Positions 47,278-62,106 of a stretch of 64,000 nucleotides of DNA are shown here, piece by piece. The stretch comes from Christiangramia sp. OXR-203 (GTDB taxonomy: Bacteria > Bacteroidota > Bacteroidia > Flavobacteriales > Flavobacteriaceae). Each line of letters opens with the position of its first letter. Positions within the stretch are counted from its first letter, which is position 1. The notes under the pieces are model-generated. The model searched no databases, was not told the DNA's origin, and saw only the letters and a list, made by a program, of their open reading frames with translations. The stretch spans positions 2,232,001-2,296,000 of the forward strand of contig NZ_CP139698.1 in NCBI RefSeq assembly GCF_034372165.1, written 5' to 3'. The position numbers and the translations under genes are program-made.

Positions 47278-47285
47278 TATGTTTG
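47278..47285 (+). promoter_or_regulatory. Candidate -7 box of the recombinase gene
   Basis: TATGTTTG matches TAnnTTTG and lies 17 bp before the recombinase ATG at 47303. A clear -33 element was not found, so the promoter may be weak or need an activator. Confidence 0.45.
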
Positions 47286-47302: not shown

Positions 47303-48460
47303 ATGAAGCAATTGAATTTGTTTCTATTCAGACATAAAAATGCTGAACAGATAGGTATAGACTTTAGATTTGACATGGAACTAAAGGCTCATTTAAAAAA
47401 GCTCAATGAAGTGAGGTGGAGTCGAACCCATTCCTGCTTCTATATTCCAGCGGGTAAACAATACCTGGAGAGCCTTAACTCCCACTTCAAATCTATAGAG
47501 GTAGAAATTAATACTGCTCTACTCGACTTTTCCAGAATTCCAGATATCGCCATTGTAGAAACTGTTGAAGTAAGACAGGCCATGCGAAAGTTCGTGCGAT
47601 ATTTAAAAGGTTTGAGACATAGCCCAAGTACGATCAAAACCTATTCTTCATTTGTGCACTCATTTCTGAAATTTCATCATGAAAAAGAGAATTACACGCA
47701 TAGGGATGTCGCCAGGTTTATAGAATCTGAAGTTGCTCTGAAACGCTATTCTATAAGTACGCACCGGCAATGTATTAGCGCTTTAAAGCATTATTTTGAA
47801 TTTAATGAAAATGCTTTATTTGATCTTAACGCGTTGAAGCGTCCCAAGAAAAGCAGTTATCTACCTACGGTTCTAAGCAAGGAAGAGTTAATCGATCTAT
47901 TGCGACTTACCCGAAATTTGAAACATCGTAGTATTCTCGCGCTTATATATTCTTCTGGCTTACGAATTGGTGAGCTGATCAATCTTGAGTTGCGGGATCT
48001 TGATATTGATAGAAGGCAAATTCTGGTTAGACAGGCAAAAGGTAGGAAAGACCGTTATGTGATGATGGCAGAAAGTTTTCTTCCATTATTACTGAATTAT
48101 TTACAAACTTATGAACCTAAGCGTTACTTCGCTGAAGGTAACGGCGGAAAATACTCCAGTTCCGCGATTCGCGGATTCCTGAAGGATTCCTGCGAAAGAG
48201 CAAAGATTAGAAAAAGGGTGACTCCGCATACGCTAAGACACAGTTTCGCCACGCATATGCTGGAGAACGGAACAGATCTAAGATATATCCAAGAACTGCT
48301 AGGCCACGCTAAACCGGAAACTACGATGATCTATACGCATGTAACCAAAAAAGACCTCCTGAAAATTGAGAGTCCGCTTGATTCCACTATCAAAAAGCTA
48401 TTGGAGAAGGGAGATAAAGAACAGTCGGATCTGCGTTTATCCCGAAACATACTCGGATAA
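47303..48460 (+). CDS. Tyrosine recombinase of the cassette array (IntI-like role, Xer-like size)
   Basis: A 385-residue tyrosine recombinase. An extra N-terminal domain of about 85 residues (VRWSRTHSCFYIPAGKQYL), seen in Bacteroidota integrases, precedes a SAM-like core-binding domain (about 95-172). The catalytic domain has R221 (SSGLRIGEL), a lysine near 246, H309 and R312 (TPHTLRHSFATH), H335 (ELLGHA) and Y344 (MIYTHV). R221 to H309 is 88 residues, close to XerD (96) and far from IntI1 (131), so the IntI-specific insertion is absent. Yet STHRQCISAL and the tail ESPLD recall IntI. It likely recombines the attC sites downstream, but this is inferred. Confidence 0.88.
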   Translation: MKQLNLFLFRHKNAEQIGIDFRFDMELKAHLKKLNEVRWSRTHSCFYIPAGKQYLESLNSHFKSIEVEINTALLDFSRIPDIAIVETVEVRQAMRKFVRYLKGLRHSPSTIKTYSSFVHSFLKFHHEKENYTHRDVARFIESEVALKRYSISTHRQCISALKHYFEFNENALFDLNALKRPKKSSYLPTVLSKEELIDLLRLTRNLKHRSILALIYSSGLRIGELINLELRDLDIDRRQILVRQAKGRKDRYVMMAESFLPLLLNYLQTYEPKRYFAEGNGGKYSSSAIRGFLKDSCERAKIRKRVTPHTLRHSFATHMLENGTDLRYIQELLGHAKPETTMIYTHVTKKDLLKIESPLDSTIKKLLEKGDKEQSDLRLSRNILG

Positions 48461-48465
48461 ATATG

Positions 48466-48473
48466 TATATTTG
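48466..48473 (+). promoter_or_regulatory. Candidate cassette promoter Pc (-7 box)
   Basis: TATATTTG is a perfect Bacteroidota -7 box. It lies 5 bp after the recombinase stop, 15 bp before the first core GTT, and points into the array. No good -33 TTG is seen at 19-23 bp, so strength is uncertain. Confidence 0.5.
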
Positions 48474-48480
48474 GGTGGAT

Positions 48481-48497
48481 ATAACGAGTTATATACA
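48481..48497 (+). other. Candidate attI site
   Basis: The first cassette joins the chromosome at GTT 48488-48490, 28 bp after the recombinase stop. The junction ATATAACGAGTTATAT forms an inverted repeat around GA, a simple core-type site with no long hairpin, as expected for attI. The right half (GTTATATAC) recurs at the identical cassette copy at 54571, which fixes the cassette boundary. The left limit of attI cannot be set from one sequence. Confidence 0.6.
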
Positions 48498-49192
48498 ATG
48501 GCTCCAAAACCACCTGAGTTCAATAACTTAACGTAACAAATCATAACTTACAATTTCCAAAGCTAGATTAAAGTGTAACGTTTCTATAAATAATTAACTA
48601 ATAGCTTAAAATAAGATTTAGAATAAATTCATAGGATACTAAAAATCCAATCACAAACATTAAACTAAAATTATCATGGCTAGAATATTGAAATCAAAAA
48701 AAACTCATCTACTTATTTTTCTATTCACATTCGTAATTGCATTCATAATATTAAGCACTATATTTTCAGATTGGGAACATTTCAAAGCGGGACTTTTTGG
48801 ATACTAAACTATTCTTAATAAATGTGATATACTCCCAAGCTTAATGTTGTAATAGTTAGTTGGAAAAATCCACTTCTTAAATGACAAGTAAAAATGGAGA
48901 TCCTATAAGCACTCAAGTATTATAATTGAGTTTTAAATAAAGATTTCTGTGGTTAATTATTGGTTTGATAAGAAGAATAGGACTATATCAACTTCTGATT
49001 AATATAGCCGGAACACGTTTAAAACTTAAAAGAGGTCCAATTTATAACTGTAACTGTCGCCACAGTATATAACAACGGTTAATCGCCAATAGACGGCAGC
49101 GTTAGAAAGAAAATAATTAAATTGACCAACAAACCAATACTAAGCCGACAACTCCGCGTCCCTTATTCCGCCAACTGGCGATAACCGAGACC
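48488..49192 (+). repeat. Duplicated cassette, copy 1 (cassette 1)
   Basis: This 705-bp cassette is repeated at 54571-55275. I found no difference between the copies by reading them side by side. It holds one 43-codon gene and its attC. The 257 bp between that gene and the attC (48808-49064) contain no frame I can support. Being next to attI, copy 1 may be the most recent insertion. Confidence 0.85.
48676..48807 (+). CDS. Small membrane protein, cassette 1 (43 residues)
   Basis: ATG 48676 encodes MARILKSKKTHLLIFLFTF, continuing through one hydrophobic helix (about 11-31) and ending in SDWEHFKAGLFGY. Short proteins with a DWEHFKAGL-like ending are, as I recall, common in Flavobacteria, which supports a real gene. 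Function unknown. An identical copy lies at 54759-54890. Confidence 0.65.
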   Translation: MARILKSKKTHLLIFLFTFVIAFIILSTIFSDWEHFKAGLFGY

Positions 49193-49199
49193 GTTGCCC
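49065..49199 (+). other. attC-like site 1 (family A)
   Basis: The left box GTATATAAC (49065-49073) is the inverse of the cassette 1 start GTTATATAC. The right core is GTTGCCC at 49193-49199. Arms CGGTTAATCGCC and GGCGATAACCG pair with one bulged A. The loop carries CCGACAACTCCGCGTC. Confidence 0.88.
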
Positions 49200-49206
49200 A
49201 CAATAT

Positions 49207-50094
49207 ATGACAAGAAAGCTACTTATAATTATTGGACTCATCAGCTTCCAATTTTCAATTGCTCAAATTCAAGGAACAATTATTAACTCTGATACTAATC
49301 AGTCCATTTCATTTGCAAGTATTTGGATTGAGAATACAAATATTGGAACCACATCTGATAAAAATGGAGTATATCAGCTAGACAAGACTGATAACTCAAA
49401 TATTGTTGTCTTTTCAGCTATAGGGTATCAAACCCAACGTATTGAATTTGATTTATTAAAAGATAGCATACGATTAAAATCAATATCAGAACCATATCCT
49501 AAACTTGAGAATATAAATAGTTCTAGAAAGAAAAAAAGAACAACTAGTATTGGTAAATACGACAAAGCGAAAACTAAGAGATTTTTTGGGGCAGGTAATT
49601 TACCTGGGATAACAGCGCGATTTTTTGAGTATAATAATTCATATTCCAAAACACCGTTTTTAAACGAAATTTCTATCCTAACCAGTAGTGATATTTCTAG
49701 AGCTAAATTTCTAATTAAATTATATAAAAAGGACAGCGTTGGTAATCCAGGAGATTACATATATCATAAAAATATTATCGGCGTATCACGACGTGGTAAA
49801 AGATCCACGAAAATAAATCTTTCGGATTTGAATATAAAATTTCCAGAAAAAGGTCTTTTTGTCGGAATAGAGTGGTTAATTATAGAAGATAACAAATTTG
49901 AATATTCGTATATATCACCGGGCAAAAAGGGAGAATTAACAGATATATCATATGAGCCAGCATTCGGAATGATTTCGAGTTCGACATTAAATAATTCGTG
50001 GAGCTTCTTTCAAGGACATTGGACTAGAATCCCTAAAGATCCAAGAAACCACGAGTTTAAACTTTTAGCATTAGAATTAGAGTTATCAGACTAA
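49207..50094 (+). CDS. Secreted protein with carboxypeptidase-like regulatory domain, cassette 2
   Basis: A 295-residue protein with a signal peptide (to FSIAQ, residue 20) and an N-terminal carboxypeptidase-D regulatory-like beta sandwich (GTIINSDTNQSISFASIWIE, GVYQLDKT, VFSAIGYQTQRIEF). The rest, including KRFFGAGNLPGITARFFEY, is unassigned. Such domains often tether outer-membrane proteins in Bacteroidota. The start lies 14 bp after the attC core, and the stop 7 bp before the next attC. Function unknown. Confidence 0.78.
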   Translation: MTRKLLIIIGLISFQFSIAQIQGTIINSDTNQSISFASIWIENTNIGTTSDKNGVYQLDKTDNSNIVVFSAIGYQTQRIEFDLLKDSIRLKSISEPYPKLENINSSRKKKRTTSIGKYDKAKTKRFFGAGNLPGITARFFEYNNSYSKTPFLNEISILTSSDISRAKFLIKLYKKDSVGNPGDYIYHKNIIGVSRRGKRSTKINLSDLNIKFPEKGLFVGIEWLIIEDNKFEYSYISPGKKGELTDISYEPAFGMISSSTLNNSWSFFQGHWTRIPKDPRNHEFKLLALELELSD

Positions 50095-50100
50095 TATACC

Positions 50101-50235
50101 GTGGGCAACATCGGTTGATCGCCAATAAGCGGCACCGTTAATAAGATAATAATTAACTTGACCAACAATCCAATACTAAGCCGACAAATCCGCGTCCCTT
50201 ACTCCGCCAACTGGCGATAACCGAAACCGTTGGCA
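50101..50235 (+). other. attC-like site 2 (family A)
   Basis: The left box GTGGGCAAC (50101-50109) is the exact inverse of the cassette 2 start GTTGCCCAC. The right core is GTTGGCA (50229-50235). Arms CGGTTGATCGCC and GGCGATAACCG pair, with a bulged G where site 1 has A. Confidence 0.88.
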
Positions 50236-50259
50236 ATAATACTTAAACAGCGAATTGAA

Positions 50260-50936
50260 ATGCAAAATAGATTTTACCAATTATCTAAAAAGGAAAAAAG
50301 GAACTTCTATCTAAATCTGACTATCGTTATTTTAGTGATTCTCATTCCCGTTTTTGCACTCTCTTTTTATTTCAAAATCTATTTTCTAGCACCTTTAATT
50401 TTCTGGATCCTACTTTCAATTACAGCTCCATTTTTCGATATACCATCAATGAATAAAAATGGAAATTTGAAATACGAATCATCGCTGTTAATTTCAGAAA
50501 AAGAAAAAATAACCAAATAAAAATACACGGAGGATCCCTATTTGACTATTACTTTGTCTTAAATAATCAAGATAAGGGAAGTAAAAGAAGAAATATTATT
50601 CTCTTAGAATATTTAAATGGTATCCTCGAAATAATTGAATCAAACAAAGAAAAGCCAGATTTAAAAATTACAGGAACTACATATATTTTGAACCAGAGAA
50701 CAGCGAATAAAATTGGTTTCAAAGTTCAAGAAATGGATACAATTCAATTAATTATCCTACTTCTAAATTATCCAAACCTGATTTTCACAAAATCTTTCTC
50801 TCATAAAAAATTATCCTTTCCAGACTTGAAGAATATTAAAACATATAAATCTAGTATTAAAGAATTGGATGAGAATAAACAGAAAATTACTCAAATTAGA
50901 AATACAATAAAAAGTACTATTGCCAACATCGGTTAA
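50260..50936 (+). pseudogene. Frameshifted membrane-protein gene, cassette 3
   Basis: ATG 50260 encodes MQNRFYQLSKKEKRNFYLNL with two membrane helices (about 21-65) and stops at 50520. A second frame, open from before 50512, continues with IKIHGGSLFDYYFVLNNQD through ESNKEKPDLKITGTTYILN to a stop at 50936 inside the attC. The junction is the A-run around 50504-50509. The two parts read as one protein of about 225 residues, so this is either a frameshift mutation, a sequencing error in the homopolymer, or a -1 slippage site. No family recognised. Confidence 0.6.
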
Positions 50937-51053
50937 TCGCAAATAACGGGTATTGCCGAAAAAGTGTAATTTTAGAAACCAAGAGAGAAAATAATTAATC
51001 CGACAAGTCCGCGTCCCTACTCCCGCAACTTGCGATAACCGTAACCGTTAGCT
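50918..51053 (+). other. attC-like site 3 (family B)
   Basis: The left box TATTGCCAAC (50918-50927) is the exact inverse of the cassette 3 start GTTGGCAATA. The right core is GTTAGCT (51047-51053). Arms CGGTTAATCGCAA and TTGCGATAACCG pair with a bulged A: the family A CC/GG pairs are replaced by AA/TT pairs. Confidence 0.87.
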
Positions 51054-51077
51054 CCAATATTTTATCAAGAAAATAGT

Positions 51078-51106
51078 TCCCAATTTGGGATTTTAATTTA
51101 TCTTTG
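51078..51106 (+). promoter_or_regulatory. Promoter and operator of the higBA cassette
   Basis: A -7 box TATCTTTG (51099-51106) lies 18 bp before the higB start. Just upstream is the palindrome TCCCAATTTGGGA (51078-51090), placed where a repressor such as HigA could block the -33 region. This cassette therefore seems to carry its own promoter, unlike the others. Confidence 0.55.
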
Positions 51107-51123
51107 TTATAAAATAATTTAAT

Positions 51124-51417
51124 GTGAGAATTATTGCAAAACGAACCTTACGTGATTTTTGGATAAAACACGCCGATAGTGAACAGCAATTAAAAGCCTG
51201 GTATCGAGAAACAGAAAAAACAGAATGGGAAAATATAAATGATTTAAAAAAAGACTATCCCAGCGCAAGTATTTTACAAGACAATAGAATCGTTTTCAAT
51301 ATAAAAGGAAACAACTATCGATTAATTGTAAAATTTAACTTTGAATATCAAGTTTGCTACATAAGATTTATTGGAACTCACGCGGAATATGATAAAATAG
51401 ACGCTAATAATATTTAG
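51124..51417 (+). CDS. higB: HigB-family mRNA interferase toxin, cassette 4
   Basis: A 97-residue RelE/HigB-like toxin. RTLRDFWIKHADSEQQLKAW at the start and the C-terminal YIRFIGTHAEYDKID are typical of the HigB family, which cleaves mRNA on the ribosome. The start is GTG 51124. The antitoxin gene follows 4 bp after the stop. Toxin-antitoxin cassettes are known to stabilise large integron arrays. Confidence 0.9.
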   Translation: MRIIAKRTLRDFWIKHADSEQQLKAWYRETEKTEWENINDLKKDYPSASILQDNRIVFNIKGNNYRLIVKFNFEYQVCYIRFIGTHAEYDKIDANNI

Positions 51418-51421
51418 AAAA

Positions 51422-51778
51422 ATGAATATAAAACCAATTAGAAACGAAGAAGATTATCAAAATGCTCTTCAAAGACTTGATGAAATTTTTGATGCAAAAA
51501 GAGGTACAGAAGAAGGTGACGAACTAGAAATACTAGTTATTCTCGTTGATAATTATGAGAATGAACATTTTCCAATCGGTATGCCTGATCCAATAGAAGC
51601 TATAAAATTCAGAATGGAACAAATGGGAATGAAACAAAAAGACCTGGCAGAGGTTTTCGGTTTCAAAAGCAGAGTAAGTGAAATTTTGAACAAGAAAAGA
51701 AAACTGACTTTGGAAATGGTAAGAAAGTTAAATACTACTCTTCATATTCCAACAGAGGTTTTGATCCAAGATTATTAA
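51422..51778 (+). CDS. higA: HigA-family antitoxin, cassette 4
   Basis: A 118-residue antitoxin. An N-terminal helical toxin-binding part (RNEEDYQNALQRLDEIFDAK) is followed by a Xre-type helix-turn-helix (MKQKDLAEVFGFKSRVSEIL, about 76-95). It should neutralise HigB and repress the promoter at 51078-51106. It lies 15 bp before the attC, and both genes fit a single cassette. Confidence 0.92.
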   Translation: MNIKPIRNEEDYQNALQRLDEIFDAKRGTEEGDELEILVILVDNYENEHFPIGMPDPIEAIKFRMEQMGMKQKDLAEVFGFKSRVSEILNKKRKLTLEMVRKLNTTLHIPTEVLIQDY

Positions 51779-51793
51779 TCGGAACACAAATAC

Positions 51794-51929
51794 TGGAGCT
51801 AACAACGGTTCACCGCAAATAAGCGGCAGCGTTAGAAAGAAAATAATTAACTTGACCAACAAACCAATACTAAGCCGACAAATCCGCCTCCCCTATTCCG
51901 CCAACTTGCGGTAACCGAAACCGTTGGCA
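51794..51929 (+). other. attC-like site 4 (family A)
   Basis: The left box TGGAGCTAAC (51794-51803) is the exact inverse of the cassette 4 start GTTAGCTCCA. The right core is GTTGGCA (51923-51929). Arms CGGTTCACCGC and GCGGTAACCG pair with a bulged C, showing a compensating change (ACC/GGT in place of ATC/GAT). Confidence 0.88.
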
Positions 51930-51948
51930 GCAATATTTCAAGAAAACA

Positions 51949-52548
51949 GTGAATAAGAAAAGTTTAGGAAAGAAGAATAAAGAGCTTCTAAAAATTGCAG
52001 AAAATATAATGAAGGCTGGAAATTCTTCTGTTCAGAAAAAAGACTTTTATATCCTCTCAATTATTAATAGAACGATTTCTTTGAATAAGGCATTTATTCT
52101 TTTAGTAGAGAATAAAAATTCGCTTTCTGCAGTTTCTATCTTAAGAATGCAACTCGATAATTTATTGAGATTAAATGCGATCAATATTGTAGATAATATT
52201 GATGATTTTTTAAAACATTTTTATGACGGGAAACCGATAAACACATTCAAGATAAAAAAGCAAAGATTTACGGATAAATTCTTAGCAACAGAATTGGATA
52301 AAAAGGTTCCCCAAACTTTAGATTTATATAATTACTTATGTGATTATATTCATTTTAGTGATAAACATTTTGATGCAACAAAAACGTTTTCAAAAAATGA
52401 AAAAGCTCTATTTAGAATAGTAATTGGTGAGTCCGATATTTTTAATAAAGGTCAAATCACCACTTTCTACGAGAATATAATCTATATATCTAATTCTATA
52501 GAAATGATTGGGCAAGAATGGATAAATTCAAAAGAAAATTTGAACTAG
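51949..52548 (+). CDS. Helical protein of unknown function, cassette 5
   Basis: A 199-residue, mostly helical protein starting at GTG 51949, 26 bp after the core site. NKNSLSAVSILRMQLDNLLRLN and YLCDYIHFSDKHFD resemble the DUF5677/HEPN-like pattern of paired helices with a conserved Arg and His, but I cannot confirm this. No signal or membrane segment. If HEPN-like it could be an RNase effector. Confidence 0.6.
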   Translation: MNKKSLGKKNKELLKIAENIMKAGNSSVQKKDFYILSIINRTISLNKAFILLVENKNSLSAVSILRMQLDNLLRLNAINIVDNIDDFLKHFYDGKPINTFKIKKQRFTDKFLATELDKKVPQTLDLYNYLCDYIHFSDKHFDATKTFSKNEKALFRIVIGESDIFNKGQITTFYENIIYISNSIEMIGQEWINSKENLN

Positions 52549-52555
52549 AAATACG

Positions 52556-52693
52556 GCTGCCAACAACGTATATCGCAAATGGCGGGTTTCATAGAAAAGT
52601 ACTAAATTAGTTTTGATAACAAACAAAAGCGTTAAGCCGACAAATCCGCATCCATAAATCCGCGCCACTTGTCGATATACGAGACCGTTGTGC
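52556..52693 (+). other. attC-like site 5 (family C)
   Basis: The left box GCTGCCAAC (52556-52564) is the inverse of the cassette 5 start GTTGGCAGC. The right core is GTTGTGC (52687-52693). Arms CGTATATCG and CGATATACG pair fully although the bases differ from family A, a clear covariation. Confidence 0.87.
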
Positions 52694-52830
52694 CAAATTA
52701 ATAAGAAAAATAATCTTTCAATTTATGTTCGGAATTTTAAAAATCCGAATTATTTTACAGAGCATTTTTCTACTTATTTTAAAAAGATTAAAAATTATAA
52801 ACTATATATTCAACTTTAAATATTCCAAAA

Positions 52831-53399
52831 TGAGAAAATTATTACTCCTTTTATTGCTTGTTAATTATTCAGTTTTCGCTCAATTAAAAATTAAAGATGA
52901 TAAAACTGTATTTTATGAAGAAGTCATTGAAACAGATAAAACTACAAAAGAAGTTCACGACGCCGTAGAAGAATTTTTGGCTACTAATTCTGGCAATTCT
53001 AACTACACTATTAAAATTAATAACGAAGACCAAATCTTATCAAAAGGTCAAATTAGTGTAATTGGGCCAAACAAATTAGAAATTGTGCTAAACACAGAGT
53101 TCAAAGATGGCAGATATAGAATCCTAATGGATCCAATTTCGTGGAATGGTAAAAGTCCATTAACAGAATCAATGAATTTTGATAAAGAGAAAGCTAAAGA
53201 AGATATGAAACAAATGTATATTGATAAAGGAATGGAAAAAACTTACGAAAAAAAGGATAAGAAAGGAGAAATTGATGCTGATATACAAGAGTTCGTCAAG
53301 ATGCAAACTATGCTATATGATAAATCTAAAGAAAAGATTATAAATTTCGCCAATTCCTTGAAAAAATATGTATCCAATAAGGAAAATTCAGAATGGTAA
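52831..53399 (+). CDS. Secreted DUF4468-like protein, cassette 6
   Basis: About 189 residues with a signal peptide (MRKLLLLLLLVNYSVFAQ). The following FYEEVIETDKTTKEVHDAVEEFLATN and later RILMDPISWNG suggest the DUF4468 (TBP-like) fold common in secreted Bacteroidota proteins. The ATG at 52831 is preferred to an upstream in-frame start at 52725, which would add a non-signal tract. Function unknown. Confidence 0.65.
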
Positions 53400-53462
53400 A
53401 AATCGGATTTAAGAAGAATAAATATTCTTAAATTAGATGAAACTCAATATCCATAAATTAAC

Positions 53463-53598
53463 TTGGCACAACATCGGTTCATCGCAAATAGCGGGTATTG
53501 TGCTGAAAATTGTTATTTTAGAGACCATTATAAAAACCACTAAGCCGACAAATCCGCATCCTTACTCCCGCAACTTGCGATAACCGTAACCGTTAGGC
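53463..53598 (+). other. attC-like site 6 (family B)
   Basis: The left box TTGGCACAAC (53463-53472) is the exact inverse of the cassette 6 start GTTGTGCCAA. The right core is GTTAGGC (53592-53598). Arms CGGTTCATCGCAA and TTGCGATAACCG pair with a bulged C. Confidence 0.87.
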
Positions 53599-53613
53599 AA
53601 AATAAAATCAATC

Positions 53614-54429
53614 ATGGAAGAAACTCCTAAATCAGAAAATCATAAAAAAATGAAATGTGGTATTATAATGCCGATAGCTTCTCATTCTGATTATCCAACC
53701 GATCATTGGACCGACGTTTTAGATATACTTATTGAAGCTATAGAAGAGACGGACTTCGAGCCTAGATTGGTAAGTGATGATGTAGCCGTTGGACTAATTC
53801 ATGATAGAATAGTAACAAATATTTACAATGATGAAATTATTGTTTGTGATGTTAGCTCTAAAAACCCGAATGTGATGTTTGAATTGGGATTAAGATTAGC
53901 TTTTGATAAGCCGACTATTATAATTAAAGATGAACTTACTGGTTATTCTTTTGATACTGGAGTTATTGAGCATATAAATTATCCATCTTCACTGCGGTTC
54001 AATGAAATCGTTAAATTTAAAATAGAACTAAAAAAGAGGATTAATGCTACTTATAAAAAATCTCAAGAAGAAAGTGACTATTCTCCATTTCTAAAAAGCT
54101 TCGGAAAAAAAATTGTGCCGGCATCAATTCAGCAAACCGAGATTCCAGAAGGAAAATTTATTTTAGAGCAAATTAATTTAATGAGAAACGATTTGCGATC
54201 TCTGAAAAATAAAGATTCTGCAGTAAAATCTTTTAATAATAATACAAAAAATGAGAGAATGGTTTTGGAGTACTATATAAAAGATCAAATTGCAAAAGGT
54301 AAAATACCGAATGAAAGAGATGCTATAACCTTGAGAAATGCTTTGTTGCATCAAGGTGTAGACTTAGAAGTAGATTTCATAAAGGATTATCTCAGAAATA
54401 TTGATCATTTCTTACCAAAAAAACTATAG
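53614..54429 (+). CDS. TIR/deoxyribosyltransferase-like protein, cassette 7
   Basis: A 271-residue protein. The N-terminal 150 residues form a Rossmann-like domain with CGIIMPIAS (15-23), VGLIHDRIVTNIYNDEIIVCDVS (59-81) and NPNVMFELGLRLAFDKP (84-100), where E90 aligns with the catalytic glutamate of nucleoside deoxyribosyltransferase/TIR-like NAD-cleaving domains. The C-terminal part is helical. Such proteins are frequent in antiphage systems; a defence role is an inference. Confidence 0.7.
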   Translation: MEETPKSENHKKMKCGIIMPIASHSDYPTDHWTDVLDILIEAIEETDFEPRLVSDDVAVGLIHDRIVTNIYNDEIIVCDVSSKNPNVMFELGLRLAFDKPTIIIKDELTGYSFDTGVIEHINYPSSLRFNEIVKFKIELKKRINATYKKSQEESDYSPFLKSFGKKIVPASIQQTEIPEGKFILEQINLMRNDLRSLKNKDSAVKSFNNNTKNERMVLEYYIKDQIAKGKIPNERDAITLRNALLHQGVDLEVDFIKDYLRNIDHFLPKKL

Positions 54430-54442
54430 AAGATTTTACTTA

Positions 54443-54577
54443 GCCTAACAACGGTTACCGCAAATGGCGGGTTTTACAAAAAAGAACTAAATTAGTTTCC
54501 ATAACAAACCAAACCGTAAACCGACAAATCCGCATCCATAATTCCGCGCCACTTGTCGTTAACCGGGACCGTTATAT
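54443..54577 (+). other. attC-like site 7 (family C)
   Basis: The left box GCCTAAC (54443-54449) is the inverse of the cassette 7 start GTTAGGC. The right core is GTTATAT (54571-54577). Arms CGGTTA and TAACCG pair, and the loop holds CCGACAAATCCGCATC. Confidence 0.85.
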
Positions 54578-55275
54578 ACAATGGCTCCAAAACCACCTGA
54601 GTTCAATAACTTAACGTAACAAATCATAACTTACAATTTCCAAAGCTAGATTAAAGTGTAACGTTTCTATAAATAATTAACTAATAGCTTAAAATAAGAT
54701 TTAGAATAAATTCATAGGATACTAAAAATCCAATCACAAACATTAAACTAAAATTATCATGGCTAGAATATTGAAATCAAAAAAAACTCATCTACTTATT
54801 TTTCTATTCACATTCGTAATTGCATTCATAATATTAAGCACTATATTTTCAGATTGGGAACATTTCAAAGCGGGACTTTTTGGATACTAAACTATTCTTA
54901 ATAAATGTGATATACTCCCAAGCTTAATGTTGTAATAGTTAGTTGGAAAAATCCACTTCTTAAATGACAAGTAAAAATGGAGATCCTATAAGCACTCAAG
55001 TATTATAATTGAGTTTTAAATAAAGATTTCTGTGGTTAATTATTGGTTTGATAAGAAGAATAGGACTATATCAACTTCTGATTAATATAGCCGGAACACG
55101 TTTAAAACTTAAAAGAGGTCCAATTTATAACTGTAACTGTCGCCACAGTATATAACAACGGTTAATCGCCAATAGACGGCAGCGTTAGAAAGAAAATAAT
55201 TAAATTGACCAACAAACCAATACTAAGCCGACAACTCCGCGTCCCTTATTCCGCCAACTGGCGATAACCGAGACC
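54571..55275 (+). repeat. Duplicated cassette, copy 2 (cassette 8)
   Basis: 705 bp with no visible difference from 48488-49192, including gene and attC, embedded between different neighbours. The 257 bp from 54891 to 55147 hold no supported gene. The identity implies a recent copying event through the recombination system. Confidence 0.85.
54759..54890 (+). CDS. Small membrane protein, cassette 8 (second copy)
   Basis: Identical to the 43-residue protein at 48676-48807: MARILKSKKTHLLIFLFTF, then one membrane helix and an ending of SDWEHFKAGLFGY. Function unknown. Confidence 0.65.
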   Translation: MARILKSKKTHLLIFLFTFVIAFIILSTIFSDWEHFKAGLFGY

Positions 55276-55282
55276 GTTGTAA
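55148..55282 (+). other. attC-like site 8 (family A)
   Basis: Same sequence as site 1 up to the core. The left box is GTATATAAC (55148-55156) and the right core is GTTGTAA (55276-55282). Confidence 0.88.
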
Positions 55283-55738
55283 AGCAGTATTTAGAATGTG
55301 AAAACAAAAAAAAGAAGGCGAATCTGAATAAAAAAAACCAATCTCCCGCAACTGTTGCGCTGACCTTTTTAAGATTTTAGTAAAAACAAAAACCACTCAA
55401 ACGCAAGGTTTATGGGAAAAGTTTACAAGGTTGAAAAATGGATAAATTGAATGCTCTTAAAATCAGTTTGCGGATTCTTACACTAACTTGAAAAAGAGAA
55501 AAAAAAAATTCAGGTTGTTATTCTGACTTTTACTCAAGAATGAAAAATGGATAAATTGAATGCCTTTAGATCTATAAAACCGATTTTTACTCAGCCGTAA
55601 AAAAAATGCATAAACGATTAAGAAGAAAAGAATTCAAACGGACTCTTACTCAAACGTGAAAAATTGATTTGAAATTTAGAAAAGAAGAAAAACAAAAAAG
55701 CAGACAACAGAACAACATATTCCGAAGTAAATACCGCA
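55276..55738 (+). ncRNA. Non-coding cassette 9 with degenerate tandem repeats
   Basis: The cassette holds no frame longer than about 20 codons on the plus strand. It has a degenerate repeat with a period of 52-59 bp. The core is roughly CGGATTYTTACTCAA followed by TGAAAAA, at about 55471, 55523, 55580 and 55639, with a diverged earlier copy near 55421. The segment GAAAAATGGATAAATTGAATG occurs at about 55432 and 55541. It may encode a repetitive RNA or be a decayed cassette; expression is unknown. Confidence 0.35.
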
Positions 55739-55872
55739 TTACAACATCGTTTAACAGCAAATAGCGGGCATTGTGGTGAAAAGTGCTATTTTAGACATCA
55801 AGTGAAAACCAACTAAGCCGACAAGAACGCGTCCTTACTCCACGCCACTTGCGTTAAACAAGACCGTTATGT
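55739..55872 (+). other. attC-like site 9 (family D)
   Basis: The left box TTACAAC (55739-55745) is the inverse of the cassette 9 start GTTGTAA. The right core is GTTATGT (55866-55872). Arms GTTTAACAGC and GCGTTAAAC pair with a bulged A. Confidence 0.86.
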
Positions 55873-55891
55873 GTAAGCTTTAAACAAACCT

Positions 55892-57043
55892 ATGATTAAA
55901 AAAATATCTCTTATCGTTTTAATTTCATGTATTTCATGGACTTACGCTCAAGAAATTAAATTTAAAACATCTGAAAAAGGAATAAATATCGGCCATATCG
56001 ATACAATTTATTCTAAGATTTTAAATGAGGAAAGAGAAATTCTCATTTACCTCCCAGAAAGTATAAAATATGATGACTATAAAAGAGAAAAATATCCTGT
56101 AATATATCTTCTAGATGGTAGATATAATTTTCTTCAATTGGTAGCTTTGGAAAGACAGTATGCCGAAAAAAATGACACTAAAATTCTGCCAGAAATGATA
56201 ATTGTTGGTATTTCAAATGAAAACCAAAATAAAAGACAATTAGATTATTCCCCAACTATTTCAGGAAATCCTGAAAGCTACGGCAGAGGCGATCAATTTT
56301 TAGGTTTTATAAATGAGGAATTATTTAAGTACATAGAAAATCGATATCCAGCATCAGATCAAAATAGAACTATTATCGGACATTCTTTTGGAGGAGTTGC
56401 GGTATTGAATGCACTATCAAGACATTCAGATTTGTTTGAAAATTATTTGTTGATTGATGCAAGTTTTTGGTTTGAGAATGAACTATTTCTAAATGATTCA
56501 GAGTATGGTCTAAAGAATAAAAATCTGACTAATAAAAACCTGTTCATAGGTATTGCCAATACTTCTCAATATGGTAGCACTCTTGAAACGATTCAGAAAG
56601 ACACCCTTAGTGTGAATAAGTATGTTCGTCATTCCTTAGAATTAAAAGATCAATTGAATACATCTTCCACTGGACCAAATTTAAAATGGAAATATTATGA
56701 AAATGATAGCCATGGAAGCACTGTTTTTCCAGCACAATTAGATGCCTTAAGATTTTTTTACTCTTGGTTTGAATTTAAAGAAGAAAGAAAATATCAAGGG
56801 AAATACGAACTTCCAACAAGCGAAGAAGAATCATTTTCTCGATTGACTGAAAAACATTTTAAAATGGTTTCAGATGAATTAGGTTATAATTTCTATCCAA
56901 CTGTTCCTTGGCTAATCAATAATTCTGACATGCTTTTAAATTATCATAAACTTCCTAATCAGGCGAAAGAATTACTTTATCTATCAAAAAAATATTATCC
57001 GAAAAACGAACAAATTGAAAAAAAATTACAACAAATAAACTAG
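55892..57043 (+). CDS. Secreted esterase-like alpha/beta hydrolase, cassette 10
   Basis: A 383-residue protein with a signal peptide (1-20, ending TYAQ). It belongs to the esterase D-like alpha/beta hydrolases: REILIYLPESIKYDD and YPVIYLLDGR near 67-77, the nucleophile elbow GHSFGG (S165), and a C-terminal His in ENDSHGSTVFPAQ. Family members hydrolyse siderophore or acyl esters; substrate here unknown. Start 26 bp after the attC core. Confidence 0.85.
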   Translation: MIKKISLIVLISCISWTYAQEIKFKTSEKGINIGHIDTIYSKILNEEREILIYLPESIKYDDYKREKYPVIYLLDGRYNFLQLVALERQYAEKNDTKILPEMIIVGISNENQNKRQLDYSPTISGNPESYGRGDQFLGFINEELFKYIENRYPASDQNRTIIGHSFGGVAVLNALSRHSDLFENYLLIDASFWFENELFLNDSEYGLKNKNLTNKNLFIGIANTSQYGSTLETIQKDTLSVNKYVRHSLELKDQLNTSSTGPNLKWKYYENDSHGSTVFPAQLDALRFFYSWFEFKEERKYQGKYELPTSEEESFSRLTEKHFKMVSDELGYNFYPTVPWLINNSDMLLNYHKLPNQAKELLYLSKKYYPKNEQIEKKLQQIN

Positions 57044-57055
57044 TTTTGGGTAAAA

Positions 57056-57195
57056 GCCTACACATAACATCGGTTAAGCGCAAATAGCGGGCAGTCCGGT
57101 GAAAAGTGTTATTTTAGTGACCAATTAACAAACAACAAAACCGACAAGTTCGCGTCCCAACCCCACGCCACTTGCCTTAACCAAGACCGTTGTGC
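57056..57195 (+). other. attC-like site 10 (family D)
   Basis: The left box GCCTACACATAAC (57056-57068) matches the inverse of the cassette 10 start GTTATGTGTAAGC at 12 of 13 bases. The right core is GTTGTGC (57189-57195). Arms GGTTAAG and CTTAACC pair. Confidence 0.86.
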
Positions 57196-57214
57196 TTAAT
57201 ACAAAAGAAAATTA

Positions 57215-58015
57215 ATGTCGGAAGAAAGAATCTTTACTCAAAAAGAAATTTATGAAATCAGACAAATTGCATCTGAACTAAATTTTCCAATGAAATTAAC
57301 AATTGACAAAGGATTTAGGGAAATTGGTTTTGATTATTTTGAATCCACTTACTTTAATTCAATTTTAAAAAAAAATGATAAAGGATATCAGATGAATTTC
57401 GTTTCATCTCAAGGAAAAAATTCTTTTTATGAAAATAAAGACTGGTTTCAATTTAAAAACATGATATTAAAATGGGTTGAGGCTTTAAAAAGAGAAAACC
57501 CCTTTTATTTAAACAAAAGAGAAAATATTGATAAACTCAGTCCTAGATTTTACAAATTACTTCAAGAAACAATAATGATAAACAATCTCGGATTTGATGA
57601 GAGTTCTGGAATGTTAATGAGAAAAAATTTAGAAATTATAGTTAAAGATTATCTGCTAGTTGTTCTTCCTGAAAAATTTGCTGTATCAATTAATAAAAAA
57701 ACTATTGGTAGAATTGTACATGATTTCTATGAAATAAATGAAATGGAATTGATTCCAAAAAAATCTGAAAAATTGGAATGTATTCAAAAAGAACTAATCG
57801 AATTGAAATCTTTTTTTAAAATAATTAGCAACACTTTTAAAATTGGTAATGATTTCGCACATTATGAAAGAAAACTCAAAAATTTTACATCAAACAATAT
57901 GTTAGAAAATTTGAATAAAATCGTAGAGTATGTTAGTCATCATTTGGAAGAAAGAGAAATTAAGAACAAAAGGATTAAATTAAACAATGACTTTGAGTCT
58001 GATACATTAATCTAA
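57215..58015 (+). CDS. DUF4145-like protein of unknown function, cassette 11
   Basis: A 266-residue soluble protein. SPRFYKLLQETIMINNLGF and GMLMRKNLEIIVKDYLL, followed by GNDFAHYERK near 218, resemble DUF4145 proteins, which have a helical domain with a conserved G-N-x-x-A-H motif related to HEPN folds. DUF4145 is common near restriction or defence genes. Start 26 bp after the core. Assignment tentative. Confidence 0.6.
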   Translation: MSEERIFTQKEIYEIRQIASELNFPMKLTIDKGFREIGFDYFESTYFNSILKKNDKGYQMNFVSSQGKNSFYENKDWFQFKNMILKWVEALKRENPFYLNKRENIDKLSPRFYKLLQETIMINNLGFDESSGMLMRKNLEIIVKDYLLVVLPEKFAVSINKKTIGRIVHDFYEINEMELIPKKSEKLECIQKELIELKSFFKIISNTFKIGNDFAHYERKLKNFTSNNMLENLNKIVEYVSHHLEEREIKNKRIKLNNDFESDTLI

Positions 58016-58024
58016 CAATTGTAC

Positions 58025-58161
58025 TAAGCACAACATCGTATAACAGCAAATAGCGGGCATTGTGCTGAAAAGTGTTATTTTAGTGACCAAGTAAAAAACA
58101 ACAAAACCGACAAGAACGCGTCCCTACTCCACGCCACTTGCGTTATACAAGACCGTTATAT
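58025..58161 (+). other. attC-like site 11 (family D)
   Basis: The left box TAAGCACAAC (58025-58034) is the exact inverse of the cassette 11 start GTTGTGCTTA. The right core is GTTATAT (58155-58161). Arms GTATAACAGC and GCGTTATAC pair with a bulged A. Confidence 0.86.
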
Positions 58162-58250
58162 GGCATTTTTACAGACAGTTTGTCACTATAAATTTAATGG
58201 TAAGAAAATTGTAACTTGCTGACCAGTTCATTGATATAAAGATATTGGAT

Positions 58251-58366
58251 TTAGACTTTAGGTTCACTCATAAATCTATCGTCAGGATTGCCCTAGAACA
58301 TCTATGGAGAATATTTGTCCGAACTATTTTCATCGGGCTGTATTTCACATTAAGTTGTTCTGTGTC
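58251..58366 (+). repeat. 116-bp direct repeat, copy 1, in the leader of the RT cassette
   Basis: This sequence recurs at 58623-58738 with a single A-to-T difference near its 22nd base. The repeats flank a 256-bp spacer. The frame running through the copy (DFRFTHKSIVRIALEHLW) is cut by a stop in the second copy, so it is unlikely to be a gene. Confidence 0.8.
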
Positions 58367-58622
58367 GATTCCGTTTGATGCCGTTGTGTATGACAGCACA
58401 ATGCCTTTGGAAACAATGGTATCAAGCTCTTTTCAGAGTAGGAAGGACGGGGCGCCAGCATTTTCTGCAAAAAATGCAAAAAAGTTGCAAAAGTCAGAAA
58501 AAACCTTAAATTTGAATGAAATGGGTACAAACAGAAACTTCAATTTAGGCTGCAGTGCTAAATCCACTTCCGCCGTCCAAAACGCCGATGAGATTTCACT
58601 TGATTTTCAAATCAAGATTGCG
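58367..58622 (+). other. Structured non-coding spacer between the two leader repeats
   Basis: It holds a hairpin CTTGATTTTCAAATCAAG (58599-58616; 8-bp stem) and TATGACAGCAC near 58387, whose inverse GTGCTGTCATA lies just after repeat 2 at about 58750-58760. The inverted pair could fold the region between them into one structured RNA before the reverse transcriptase. No gene is supported here. Confidence 0.45.
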
Positions 58623-58738
58623 TTAGACTTTAGGTTCACTCATTAATCTATCGTCAGGATTGCCCTAGAACATCTATGGAGAATATTTGTCCGAACTATT
58701 TTCATCGGGCTGTATTTCACATTAAGTTGTTCTGTGTC
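58623..58738 (+). repeat. 116-bp direct repeat, copy 2, before the reverse transcriptase
   Basis: Second copy of the repeat at 58251-58366, differing at one base, ending 65 bp before the reverse transcriptase ATG. Confidence 0.8.
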
Positions 58739-58803
58739 TACATTGTAAGGTGCTGTCATACGGACATAATGTCTTCCATAAGGCCTTTGCAACACAAGAA
58801 TTA

Positions 58804-60075
58804 ATGGCAAAAACATTACTAGAAAAAATTTCCTCCCAAGAGAATTTACTAAATGCTTGGGGAAAACTTAACAAGACTAATAAATCTTCACACGGATTAG
58901 ATAAAATTTCCATTGAAGAATTTGGGGATAATATTGATGATAAAATACTATCAATATCCAACAAACTTCAGTCCGGCACTTATCAATTTTCCCAAAACAG
59001 AGCAGTTTTAATTCCAAAAGATAATGGAAAGTTTAGACCACTTCAAGTTCCAAATATTTCAGACCGATTGGTTCTAAAAGCTATTGCCATTGAGCTGGAA
59101 GATCAATTTAAATCAGTAATTAAAAAAAGTGATGGAGTAAGTTTTGCTTATCAAAAGAAGTTAGGAGTTAAAGATGCTATTGATAAGATTAAAGAATTAT
59201 ATGACAAAGGTAACCATTTTGTATTGGAAGCTGATTTAGTGAACTTTTTCGGTACCGTAGACAAAGACGAACTCTTAAATAAGCAAATATTCCCCAAACT
59301 TAAAGATGACAGTTTAAACAATCTCATTACATCTGCTTTAAACCAAAAAATTGGTGGTTTAGATAAAATTAAAACGAAGGATAGGAAATATTTTAAAGGT
59401 TTAAACAATGGAATACCTCAAGGTAATCCATTATCTCCGTTATTATCCAACATTTACCTCTCCCCGTTTGATATTTTTCTTAAGAGTAATAATTATAACC
59501 TGGTCCGCTATGCAGATGATTTTGTAATTCTATGCGAGAGCGAAGAATTATGTAGAAAGGCTTACGAAGACAGTAAAAAAATGCTAAATAAGTTGAATTT
59601 GGAAATCCACCCTTTAGAAGAAAAAGGGAAAACAAACATTATCAATATTAACAAAGAACCTTTCGATTTTCTTTCAATCACCTTCAATGGAAGTAAATTT
59701 TACCCATCAGAAAAAAACGTTTCTAGATTTAAAAGTAAAATAAGAGATATTTGTAATGGAACTGTAGACTACAATGTTCTAACTCTACTCAAGAAAATTT
59801 CGAATGTTTATGAAGGATGGATATCTGCCTTCTACTATACAGAAATTGAGAGGTATTCAGAAGAAATAGACTACTATATTAATCGACAATTATTCTTAGT
59901 TTTAAGTAAGTATGACTGGAAATTTACTCCAAAAACTAAAGGGAAATTACCAAGAGAATACAAACAAAAGGGTGAAAGCGCAGATTGCCTTTCAAAAAAA
60001 CAAAGATCAAAATCTGGTATTCCTCTTTGCGAAGAACTTCTTAAAATTAAACGGAGTAGTAAAAACGCCACATAA
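58804..60075 (+). CDS. Stand-alone reverse transcriptase, cassette 12
   Basis: A 423-residue reverse transcriptase of group II intron-like type. Finger motif RAVLIPKDNGKFRPLQVP (67-84), catalytic D144 in LEADLVNFF, IPQGNPLSP (204-212) and YADD (236-239, D238-D239). A thumb-like helical region follows from about 290 and the tail is basic. There is no HNH or maturase endonuclease end, and no retron-type NAxxH motif. I prefer ATG 58804 over GTG 58750. Its stop TAA lies inside the left box of attC 12. Confidence 0.85.
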   Translation: MAKTLLEKISSQENLLNAWGKLNKTNKSSHGLDKISIEEFGDNIDDKILSISNKLQSGTYQFSQNRAVLIPKDNGKFRPLQVPNISDRLVLKAIAIELEDQFKSVIKKSDGVSFAYQKKLGVKDAIDKIKELYDKGNHFVLEADLVNFFGTVDKDELLNKQIFPKLKDDSLNNLITSALNQKIGGLDKIKTKDRKYFKGLNNGIPQGNPLSPLLSNIYLSPFDIFLKSNNYNLVRYADDFVILCESEELCRKAYEDSKKMLNKLNLEIHPLEEKGKTNIININKEPFDFLSITFNGSKFYPSEKNVSRFKSKIRDICNGTVDYNVLTLLKKISNVYEGWISAFYYTEIERYSEEIDYYINRQLFLVLSKYDWKFTPKTKGKLPREYKQKGESADCLSKKQRSKSGIPLCEELLKIKRSSKNAT

Positions 60076-60202
60076 CAACGGTTCATCGCCAATAAGCGGC
60101 ACCGTTAGAATGAAAATAATTAACTTGACCAACAAACCAATACTAAACCGACAAATCCGCGTCACCTACTCCGCCAACTGGCGATAACCGAGACCGTTAG
60201 CA
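60067..60202 (+). other. attC-like site 12 (family A)
   Basis: The left box GCCACATAAC (60067-60076) matches the inverse of the cassette 12 start GTTATATGGC at 9 of 10 bases. The right core is GTTAGCA (60196-60202). Arms CGGTTCATCGCC and GGCGATAACCG pair with a bulged C. Confidence 0.87.
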
Positions 60203-60217
60203 AACATTTTTAAGCGA

Positions 60218-61282
60218 ATGAAGTACATCAAAATTATTCTGATTCCCATAATTTTTGCAATTGGTATAAGATTAATATTCGGAGCAGATATATTCGACGA
60301 TTTTATATCAGTAATGTCGTGGACATTTTTTATTACAACACCAGCTGGAATTGGTGCTTTAATGATCTATTTCAGTCCTGCTGAGAAAGTGGAATCTTTA
60401 AAATATAGAATTTTCTATCCTTGGATTCCAGTCTTTTTAGTATTAGCTATTACCATGGTATTAATGATAGAAGGTTGGGCTTGTTGGCTGATGATTCTTC
60501 CCTTATTCCTAATTTTTGCTTCAATAGGTGGACTTACTGCTGGATATTTCAAATTAAAAAATAGAAAATCAGAAAATTTAAACATATCTATATTAGTACT
60601 TTTGCCATTTTTAATTGGACCAATTGAGCACTCAATTAATACCAACAAACAAGTATTTAGAACATATACATCAATTGTTATCAATGGTGAGAAGGAAACT
60701 ATATGGAATAACGTAACTAACGTTAGAGCTATTTCAAATTCAGAAGACAATTCTCAGTTGACTAAAATATTAGGTTTTCCAAGACCTGTGGAAGCTACAT
60801 TAGACAAAAATGAAATTGGAGGATATCGAGAAGCTAAATTTGAAAAAGGACTAATATTTCATGAAACAGTAACCGAATATAAGTATCTGGAATTCATGAA
60901 ATTTAAAATAAAAGCAAACACTTATGAAATTCCTTCAACAACATTAGATCGACACATATTAATTGGTGGTCAATATTTCGACATGCTAGATGGAACTTAT
61001 GAATTAAAAAAAATAGATTCAGATAAATATAAATTGATCCTCTATTCAAATTTTTCTTTAAATACAACTTTTAACTTTTATGCAGGAATATGGGGGAAAT
61101 TTATAATGAAGGATATTCAAAATAATATTCTAGAAATCATTAAAGAAAGGAGTGAAAAAACGTTTGCTAACAACGGTTCATCGCCAATAAGCGGCAGCGT
61201 TAGAAAGAAAATAATTAACTTGACCAACAAACCAATATTAAGCCGACAATTCCGCGTCGCTTACTCCGCCAACTGGCGATAA
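60218..61282 (+). CDS. Membrane protein with C-terminal SRPBCC-like domain, cassette 13
   Basis: A 354-residue protein. The N-terminal 150 residues have four membrane helices, followed by a domain of about 165 residues that reads like an SRPBCC/START-type ligand-binding fold (INGEKETIWNNVTNVR, FHETVTEYKYLEFMKFKI, FYAGIWGKFIMKDIQNNI). It has no stop before the attC: the last 40 or so residues, from ANNGSSPISGSVRKKI to YSANWR, are encoded by the attC itself. Function unknown. Confidence 0.65.
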   Translation: MKYIKIILIPIIFAIGIRLIFGADIFDDFISVMSWTFFITTPAGIGALMIYFSPAEKVESLKYRIFYPWIPVFLVLAITMVLMIEGWACWLMILPLFLIFASIGGLTAGYFKLKNRKSENLNISILVLLPFLIGPIEHSINTNKQVFRTYTSIVINGEKETIWNNVTNVRAISNSEDNSQLTKILGFPRPVEATLDKNEIGGYREAKFEKGLIFHETVTEYKYLEFMKFKIKANTYEIPSTTLDRHILIGGQYFDMLDGTYELKKIDSDKYKLILYSNFSLNTTFNFYAGIWGKFIMKDIQNNILEIIKERSEKTFANNGSSPISGSVRKKIINLTNKPILSRQFRVAYSANWR

Positions 61283-61297
61283 CCGGGACCGTTGTAA
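61162..61297 (+). other. attC-like site 13 (family A)
   Basis: The left box GTTTGCTAAC (61162-61171) is the exact inverse of the cassette 13 start GTTAGCAAAC. The right core is GTTGTAA (61291-61297). Arms CGGTTCATCGCC and GGCGATAACCG pair with a bulged C. The site is fully open in the frame of the cassette 13 gene. Confidence 0.88.
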
Positions 61298-61332
61298 AAA
61301 ATTTTTAACCAAAAAAAATAACTTTAAAATCT

Positions 61333-62091
61333 ATGGCAAAATATTTAAGAACTTCAAGCATAACTGCCGAATTAGAAAATTTAATAAGAGATGCAAGAAA
61401 AGAATTATATATAATTAGCCCTTACCTTAAACTATCTGATCATATAAAAGAATTACTTAACGATAAAGAAAGAGAAAAAGTAGATGTCAGAATCATATTT
61501 GGAAAACAAGAACTTGCTCCAACAGAGATGAGTTACTTAGAAGATTTAAAATATGTTCGATTATACTTTTCTAAGAATCTTCACGCAAAATGCTACTTGA
61601 ATGAAAGTAAAATGATAATTGCCTCAATGAACTTATATGAATTCTCACAACAAAACAATAGAGAAATGGGAATTCTCATTGACATTGAAAATGAAGAGGA
61701 TAAGAATGTTTATGAAGATGCAGCAAAAGATATAGAATCAATTATTCATAATAGTGAAGACTTCTCATATGTAAAAGCTCCTCAAAAAGAATTTTTAAGA
61801 GATTCTAAAAAAACAAAAACAACAGAAAACTCTTTACCAAAAAATAAAAATTTTAAACAAAAAGATTATTCTAAATCAAATTACAAAACCACAAAAGAGT
61901 TATCTGAAATGACAGGAATTAGTAGCCGTAAAATTAATTCTTCCCTCAAGAAAAATGGATTTATGATAAAAAAGGATGATGATTGGTTTGCAACTACAAA
62001 AGGAGAGGAATTTGGTGGATTACAAAAAGAAGGTCAATATGGTAAATTCATAGTTTGGCCAGAAGAAATAATTGATAGTATTTTAAAATAA
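61333..62091 (+). CDS. Phospholipase D-like nuclease domain protein, cassette 14
   Basis: A 252-residue protein. The N-terminal 150 residues are a PLD-like domain with LYIISPYLK near 25-33, H84 and K86 in NLHAKCYLNESKMIIASMNL, and E111. A lysine-rich linker and a C-terminal winged-helix-like region (TTKELSEMTGISSRKINSSL) follow. Single HKD-like domains with a DNA-binding tail often act as nucleases in restriction or defence systems; this role is inferred. Confidence 0.78.
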   Translation: MAKYLRTSSITAELENLIRDARKELYIISPYLKLSDHIKELLNDKEREKVDVRIIFGKQELAPTEMSYLEDLKYVRLYFSKNLHAKCYLNESKMIIASMNLYEFSQQNNREMGILIDIENEEDKNVYEDAAKDIESIIHNSEDFSYVKAPQKEFLRDSKKTKTTENSLPKNKNFKQKDYSKSNYKTTKELSEMTGISSRKINSSLKKNGFMIKKDDDWFATTKGEEFGGLQKEGQYGKFIVWPEEIIDSILK

Positions 62092-62106
62092 TTTGAACAA
62101 AAAAAC

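Follow-up and report, generated by a model that had tools for sequence, protein, structure and literature searches.

Does the short stretch between a tyrosine recombinase gene and a long row of co-oriented cassettes serve as the site where cassettes enter and as the promoter from which they are transcribed, and is the system then an integron? The stretch lies in the window, the 64,000 nucleotides of DNA analysed here (G000:C1:2232001-2296000, where G000 labels the window's own genome), which is part of one contig of the 3.4-Mb genome of a marine bacterium most closely related to Christiangramia/Gramella (Flavobacteriaceae). Reading 5' to 3', the recombinase gene is followed by TATATTTG-N4-GATATAACGAG^TT and then by an array of at least 52 cassettes (Table 1). 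A first-pass annotation had described the recombinase as co-oriented with the array and had placed a cassette promoter, Pc, and an attI site between the two. The co-orientation is borne out: both lie on the same strand, and the longest ORF points in the array direction in 48 of the 52 cassettes. Our main reading, to which we give a probability of roughly 0.8, is that the cassette system is integron-like and that positions 48433-48488 are its attI recombination site, with Pc built in. All of our conclusions are drawn from comparative sequence analysis, using a family of loci picked by similarity to the window recombinase.

Table 1 Coordinates, in the window, of the recombinase gene, the attI-Pc module and the cassette array.
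Feature	Position	Strand	Remark
Candidate -7 box TATGTTTG of the recombinase's own promoter	47278..47285	+	18 bp before ATG; TAnnTTTG consensus as in PMC9723704
Tyrosine recombinase gene	47303-48460	+	385 aa; stop TAA at 48458-48460
N-terminal domain codons (residues 1-87)	47303..47563	+	Possibly XPB-DRD/HARP-like; AlphaFold2 model
attI upstream block 1, TTATCCCG	48437..48444	+	Overlaps recombinase codons Leu-Ser-Arg
attI upstream block 2, GGATAAA	48455..48461	+	Contains the recombinase stop codon; inverted copy of block 1
Likely Pc -7 box TATATTTG	48466..48473	+	Matches TAnnTTTG; 5 bp past the recombinase stop
Predicted Pc transcription start, G of GATATAAC	48478	+	11 nt before the crossover; placed by the -12..-5 spacing
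attI core	48478..48488	+	L box GATATAAC, two variable bases, G of G^TT
Crossover G^TT	between 48488 and 48489	+	From the duplicated cassette; linked and orphan copies diverge here
First cassette, 705 bp	48489..49193	+	705/705 identical to cassette 8
First attC, AAC...GTT, 125 bp	49071..49195	+	
Second copy of cassette 1 (cassette 8)	54572..55276	+	Identical, inside the array
15 attC sites in the window	49071..62905	+	Array continues past the window to about genome position 2,348,092
attC starts 1-8	49071, 50107, 50925, 51801, 52562, 53470, 54447, 55154	+	
attC starts 9-15	55743, 57066, 58032, 60074, 61169, 62114, 62781	+	

The crossover and the cassettes

The array contains the same 705-bp cassette twice, with 0 mismatches; identity begins exactly at G^TT and ends at the next CCG^TT, and the left flanks of the two copies are unrelated, CGAG at the first and GACCG at the second. 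Two close relatives (L009 and L010, with recombinases 96% and 92% identical) have their sequence in common with the window up to GATATAACGAG (..AACGAG) and then carry other first cassettes. Comparison of relatives with different first cassettes had been proposed as a check, and attI came through it: these relatives agree with the window as far as G^TT and differ in the first cassette. The core GTT occupies 48488-48490, inside ATATAACGAGTTATAT at 48479-48494, and follows the box after 14 bp, one fewer than the 15 first counted. The exact 13-mer GATATAACGAGTT has a single occurrence in the 3.4-Mb genome.

We then have the family to set beside the window. Among 80 related loci and the window, 68 carry GATATAACNNGTT behind the recombinase with at most 2 mismatches; 13 of the 80 have no such attI there within 2 mismatches, and one mis-registered locus (L078) was left out of the motif counts, leaving 67. 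The ATATAAC and GTT columns are conserved at 94-100% (65 loci), and the sequence beyond GTT is variable except for a cassette-start consensus, GTTRNNNNNAAT. The placement of attI between recombinase and array thus holds, on the duplicated cassette, the relatives and the 67 loci with the motif. The crossover at AACGAG^TT, the co-oriented attC cassettes and the family-wide conservation of the module are the part of our reading that the sequences themselves establish.

We count at least 52 attC sites in the array, each 124-128 bp long, with 15 of them inside the window; the cassettes measure 535-3517 bp. Searching the whole genome with a home-made attC model, whose E-values are rough, returned 58 same-strand hits at 2281071-2348092 (67 kb), 6 at a second place and 2 weak ones. 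When R'' (the 12 bases before AAC) is compared with R' of the same cassette (the 12 bases after GTT), 10 of the 12 positions are 88-100% complementary; the remaining two are complementary in 62% of cassettes at one and in 0% (0/52) at position -8. With neighbouring cassettes or random pairs, complementarity is 22-66%. Since position -8 is mismatched in all 52 cassettes, it appears to be kept unpaired.

Single folds of the rebuilt circular ends give long hairpins in which the bottom strand is more stable than the top in 52/52; 51/52 have an asymmetric unpaired R/L spacer, and in 41/52 one base, always at the same place, is extrahelical. RNAalifold found no consensus pairs in the linear attC sites, as expected given that R'' pairs with its own R' after circularisation, and an Rfam scan of the array recognised no family, hence no attC family or group II intron domain. 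Behind 72 other attI sites, a matching R'' (at least 10/11) lies within 4 kb in 37, compared with 6 of 1440 null trials; short-pattern matches that lack the upstream block fail this test. The predicted attC sites are textbook-like in their same-cassette complementarity, bottom-strand hairpins and extrahelical base.

The contents of the cassettes are varied. The first encodes merely a 43-aa one-TM peptide (MARILKSKKTHLLIFLFTFVIAFIILSTIFSDWEHFKAGLFGY, window 48676-48807). The cassette at 51048-51923 holds a HigB-like toxin (51124-51417) with an HTH antitoxin (51422-51778), and the one at 58156-60196 a reverse transcriptase (58750-60075; RVT_1, RT / UG17-like by PADLOC, GIIM just under its cut-off) together with a 116-bp direct repeat at 58251 and 58623 (99%); Rfam gave no group II intron RNA in this cassette. 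Defence-like cassettes at window 61333-62091 and 62935-63630 and at L097:17948-19345 encode a PLD-like nuclease, a CBASS-effector-like HNH endonuclease and a PtuA/AriA-like AAA ATPase. A further cassette, at L097:12297-13586, encodes an erythromycin-esterase-family protein (PF05139, 160 bits).

The attI module and its probable promoter

The first-pass annotation had squeezed attI and promoter into 28 bp. Because of its conservation and its integrase-free copies, we put the module at about 52-57 bp (roughly 48433-48488), starting within the recombinase gene. Two upstream blocks are arranged as TTATCC-N12-GGATAAA across the last codons and the stop of the recombinase; counted from the G of GATATAAC, the family pattern has TTATCC(C/G)G at -41 and a (G)GATAAA whose last base is at -17. 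TTATCC stands at the same offset in 47 of 67 loci, the ATAAA core of block 2 is conserved at 0.74-0.94 per column (65 loci), and both blocks are kept in integrase-free copies of the module. The Ser codon in block 1 is TCC in 53 of the 60 in-frame loci, compared with 118 of 1729 Ser codons (6.8%) in the same genes; the constraint therefore acts on DNA. By analogy with the direct repeats of attI1, the two blocks may be accessory recombinase-binding sites. We also considered TTATCC/GGATAA as a conserved RNA hairpin and rejected it, at least 5 of the 6 pairs being kept in just 29 of 67 loci.

Comparing, within one genome, the copy linked to the recombinase with the orphan copies, we find near-identity over the 56-72 nt that precede the crossover; beyond the module there is a sharp drop, to about 1-5 matches in every 10 nt. 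This boundary is clearest in the window's own genome and in G029, G318, G406, G415 and G393.

The perfect -7 box that the first-pass annotation saw 5 bp after the recombinase stop, facing the cassettes, is indeed there. Mapped starts of Flavobacterium psychrophilum show TAnnTTTG at -12 to -5 in sigma-A promoters, with TAnnTTGY in the same place in a second class (PMC9723704). Applying this spacing here, we predict the start at the G of GATATAAC, and the base at this position is G in 77% of 65 loci. TAnnTT is found at -12 in 47 of 67 loci (background 2.0% per position), with 6 more at -13; the full TAnnTTTG stands at the box offset in 22 of 67 (background 0.1%) and the TAnnTTGY variant in 7 of 67, counts from related sequences for which binomial p-values overstate independence. 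Positions 3-4 of the box, where the sigma-A consensus allows any base, show fair conservation (T 0.82, A 0.69). No -33 TTG element is conserved at -38..-30 across the family loci; the columns there read C-C-S-G-A-A. The -33 element is often weak in this phylum. Since the family keeps the -7 box at the spacing that sigma-A promoters of flavobacteria are known to have, TATATTTG is likely to mark Pc.

The module also occurs away from the recombinase. We searched with a 53-bp composite pattern, allowing up to 2 mismatches and using the reversed pattern as a control. Of 249 Flavobacteriaceae genomes, 59 contain it; 24 of these have at least two copies, and one (G346) has up to 17; the reversed control gave zero hits, and the pattern was found in none of the sampled genomes from other families of the order. 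In the window's own genome, 6 attC sites of matching orientation come after an integrase-free module at C1:1687415-1687467(-). Among 13 genomes examined, 10 have the recombinase with one module directly behind it and other modules without a recombinase, and we count these ten as support for service in trans. G390, G481 and G433 have several modules each, and we found no intact family recombinase in them: G390 and G481 have, of such recombinases, only two Xer-sized proteins each, and in G433 a C-terminal remnant (G433:C1:354331-354579(-)) lies directly before a module.

The second platform of the window's own genome (G000:C1:1672164-1687467 (-), loci L122 and L147) adjoins an amidase gene and TraE/TraF-looking genes, and is likely carried by a conjugative element. 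Elsewhere, orphan attI-Pc modules stand in tandem, seven within 15 kb at L145 (G346:C6:37000-56000) and three within 6 kb at L146 (G390:C4:371000-383000), each preceded by a common stretch of ~100 bp that in L146 includes a terminator-like AAACCACAGATTCTGTAACAGGAGTTTGTGGTTTTTTTT. In class 1 integrons there are Delta-attI-type cassettes, and sites derived from attI are able to recombine at a distance from the integrase (PMC12901181); by analogy, recombination of attI-type cassettes is a possible route for the spread of the module.

The recombinase

The recombinase scores 138 bits against PF00589, and its catalytic residues (R221, K246, H309, R312, H335 and Y344) fall in columns that are invariant across 35 relatives. 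It exceeds the cut-off of NCBIfam NF040815 (XerA-like; 228.3 bits, cut-off 220) and stays below that of the integron integrase family TIGR02249 (193.5 bits, cut-off 265). The TIGR02249 match is split into two separated stretches because the I2 additional domain is missing between them. Indeed, the I2 block of IntI (RKYPNA..WQWVFP..RHH) is absent from the recombinase and from 79 of 79 relatives measured. The spacing from the box-I Arg to HxLRH is 88-90 aa in all 79, compared with 131 in IntI1 and 96 in XerD; it is 131 in 10 of 12 Bacteroidota IntI that we collected, the other 2 not being measurable with the motif used. In VchIntIA the residues that hold the extrahelical bases are K209, Y210, W219, P232, H240 and H241 (PMC3053210), and these appear to fall in or beside the block that is missing here.

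A tree of 31 rows places the IntI in a clade of their own (100/100), apart from the clade (97/99) that unites 20 recombinases of the present family; the tree has few outgroups and long Xer branches, and leaves a relative on a Chryseobacterium plasmid unplaced. That relative (L098, Chryseobacterium sp. SNU WT5 plasmid, NZ_CP041688.1) is 41% identical, is annotated as an integron integrase and is co-oriented with a row of small genes; it is possibly a mobile version. The window's own genome holds no other relative of the recombinase at E<=1e-40, and no second, I2-bearing recombinase reaching E 1e-60. Across the phylum, 84 of 296 sampled genomes have a classical IntI above the cut-off; within the class Bacteroidia the figure is 1 of 295. 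In an AlphaFold2 model, the catalytic part is closest to XerA (5hxy, Z 21.1), followed by an archaeal Xer (20.4) and IntI4 (18.8). The enzyme is not an IntI: we looked for the I2 domain, a family score above the cut-off and a place in the IntI clade, and found none of the three, and for these reasons we do not file the system as an IntI integron.

Its closest relatives in the catalytic part, by sequence and structure, are the XerA/archaeal-type recombinases (NF040815; PDB 5hxy and 4a8e), a comparison confined to that part; the enzyme here differs in having an extra 87-aa N-terminal domain and a cassette array as partner. Residues 1-87 are confidently modelled by AlphaFold2 (pLDDT 91, pTM 0.80) as beta-beta-alpha-beta-beta-alpha-beta, a domain absent from IntI and Xer. 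A Pfam search of these residues found no family. The top PDB matches by Foldseek are the XPB N-terminal domain (probability 0.92-0.98) and the HARP domain of SMARCAL1 (4o66), with E of about 0.12-0.17 (about 0.12 for XPB); the Z-score is 6.4 against 2fwr and ranges over 3.7-6.4, below the safe level of the tool. A lambda/Tn916-type arm-binding domain is not among the structural matches, an absence that excludes nothing. The fold match of the N-terminal domain may reflect a common arrangement; the domain resembles, at the level of a modest match, the DNA-structure-binding folds of XPB (DRD) and SMARCAL1 (HARP), which are its best structural matches and are known from helicases, not recombinases. 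If this weak match is real, the domain could be a reader of DNA structure that replaces I2.

Alternative readings and the place of the system

The array might be static, in which case the attC-like sites would be no more than inert repeats in dispersed positions, and what follows the recombinase would be just the 3' end of that gene. The repeats, of 125-128 bp, are highly uniform, as this would have it, but inert repeats do not explain R'' and R' arms that are complementary within a cassette save for a strictly mismatched position, an identical cassette at two places, near-identical relatives with different first cassettes, or an attI conserved family-wide. Together, the complementarity, the cassette duplication, the differing first cassettes and the attI conservation indicate units that move, and we find a static array scarcely credible. 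The promoter invites a more serious objection: attI may be correctly placed and TATATTTG be part of the architecture that the recombinase binds, the array being transcribed by read-through from the recombinase gene or from promoters in the cassettes. The distance from TATATTTG to GATATAAC is fixed, no -33 TTG is conserved, the co-oriented recombinase makes read-through possible, and positions 3-4 are conserved though free for sigma-A; about 30% of loci are also without TAnnTT at exactly -12, and the box may work partly for the recombinase rather than for RNA polymerase. Against this, the TAnnTTTG consensus, its exact -12..-5 position and the purine at +1 all match a promoter, and the natural variants include TAnnTTGY (7 of 67), the other flavobacterial type described. 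Moreover, the box persists in modules that have no integrase gene, which read-through from the recombinase cannot reach, and in genomes from which the recombinase has disappeared. We therefore regard a box without promoter function as unlikely, and retain attI with Pc built in.

On a third reading, the system would be nothing more than a reverse-oriented integron with an integrase of the known IntI family, like those of the Spirochaetota, whose typical IntI is reverse-oriented (PMC9668308). The two are alike in gene order and orientation, with the recombinase transcribed towards the array and attI at its 3' side, and the attC/attI logic is that of integrons. The enzymes of the Spirochaetota are IntI (PMC9668308), however, and the one here belongs to another clade, separate from an IntI clade supported at 100/100. 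The I2 block missing in all 79 relatives (88-90 vs 131 aa) already contradicts this reading, as do the split TIGR02249 match at 193.5 bits with a cut-off of 265 and the presence of classical IntI in 1 of 295 Bacteroidia genomes; we consider it very improbable. The resemblance to reverse-oriented integrases pointed out in the first-pass annotation thus survives for position and orientation and falls for the kinship of the enzyme, which lacks I2 and stands in its own clade; because the enzyme is not an IntI, the likeness is only positional.

With attC complementarity, bottom-strand hairpins and an attI with variable first cassettes all present, and Pc probable, the system, as we read it, works like a chromosomal integron in its attC, attI and cassette logic. 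It resembles the sedentary chromosomal (super-)integrons of the Vibrio cholerae type in its large same-orientation array, cassettes of ~0.5-3.5 kb, long uniform attC sites with a bottom-strand hairpin and extrahelical base, attI beside the recombinase and presumed Pc. In contrast to that type, the recombinase here is without I2 and on the array strand, attI lies behind its 3' end, pairing of the R arms extends over about 15 nt and includes one invariant mismatch, the probable promoter is within the attI module, and integrase-free attI-Pc copies occur elsewhere in the genome. Delta-attI-type class 1 cassettes (PMC12901181) share with it attI-derived sites distant from the integrase; there, the sites end resistance cassettes, whereas here intact attI-Pc modules start separate, distant arrays.

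In the mechanism we propose, the adjacent tyrosine recombinase would insert circular cassettes at attI by way of the folded bottom strand of attC, with the TTATCC/GGATAAA pair acting as accessory binding sites much as the attI1 direct repeats do. Lacking I2, it would recognise the attC hairpin by other means, perhaps through its HARP/XPB-DRD-like N-terminal domain, and it would also serve the integrase-free modules elsewhere in the genome. Each new cassette would enter 11 nt downstream of the Pc start, and sigma-A RNA polymerase, starting at the G of GATATAAC, would transcribe the first cassettes. The broadest form of this proposal is a non-IntI integron lineage in the Flavobacteriaceae, with an I2-less XerA-type recombinase, HARP/DRD-like structure reading and many attI-Pc platforms of ~57 bp, some on conjugative elements and some outliving the recombinase; taken as a whole, we hold it to be evenly balanced between right and wrong.

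Our search of freely accessible journal papers found no description of such Flavobacteriaceae integrons. Integron surveys define the integron integrase by its I2 additional domain (e.g. PMC2426708, PMC8352920), and because they require it, systems like this one would be missed or filed as integrase-less arrays. I2 is considered to have co-evolved with the extrahelical bases of attC, and Escudero et al. (PMC4792948) speak of a "chicken-and-egg paradox" in their joint origin. The question of co-origin becomes directly testable in a living lineage whose attC sites form hairpins with extrahelical bases while its enzyme lacks I2. The dispersed attI-Pc modules, in turn, suggest that one recombinase can serve several expression platforms per genome, some of them on conjugative elements, and this would change models of how cassettes are captured and spread in a major marine bacterial family.
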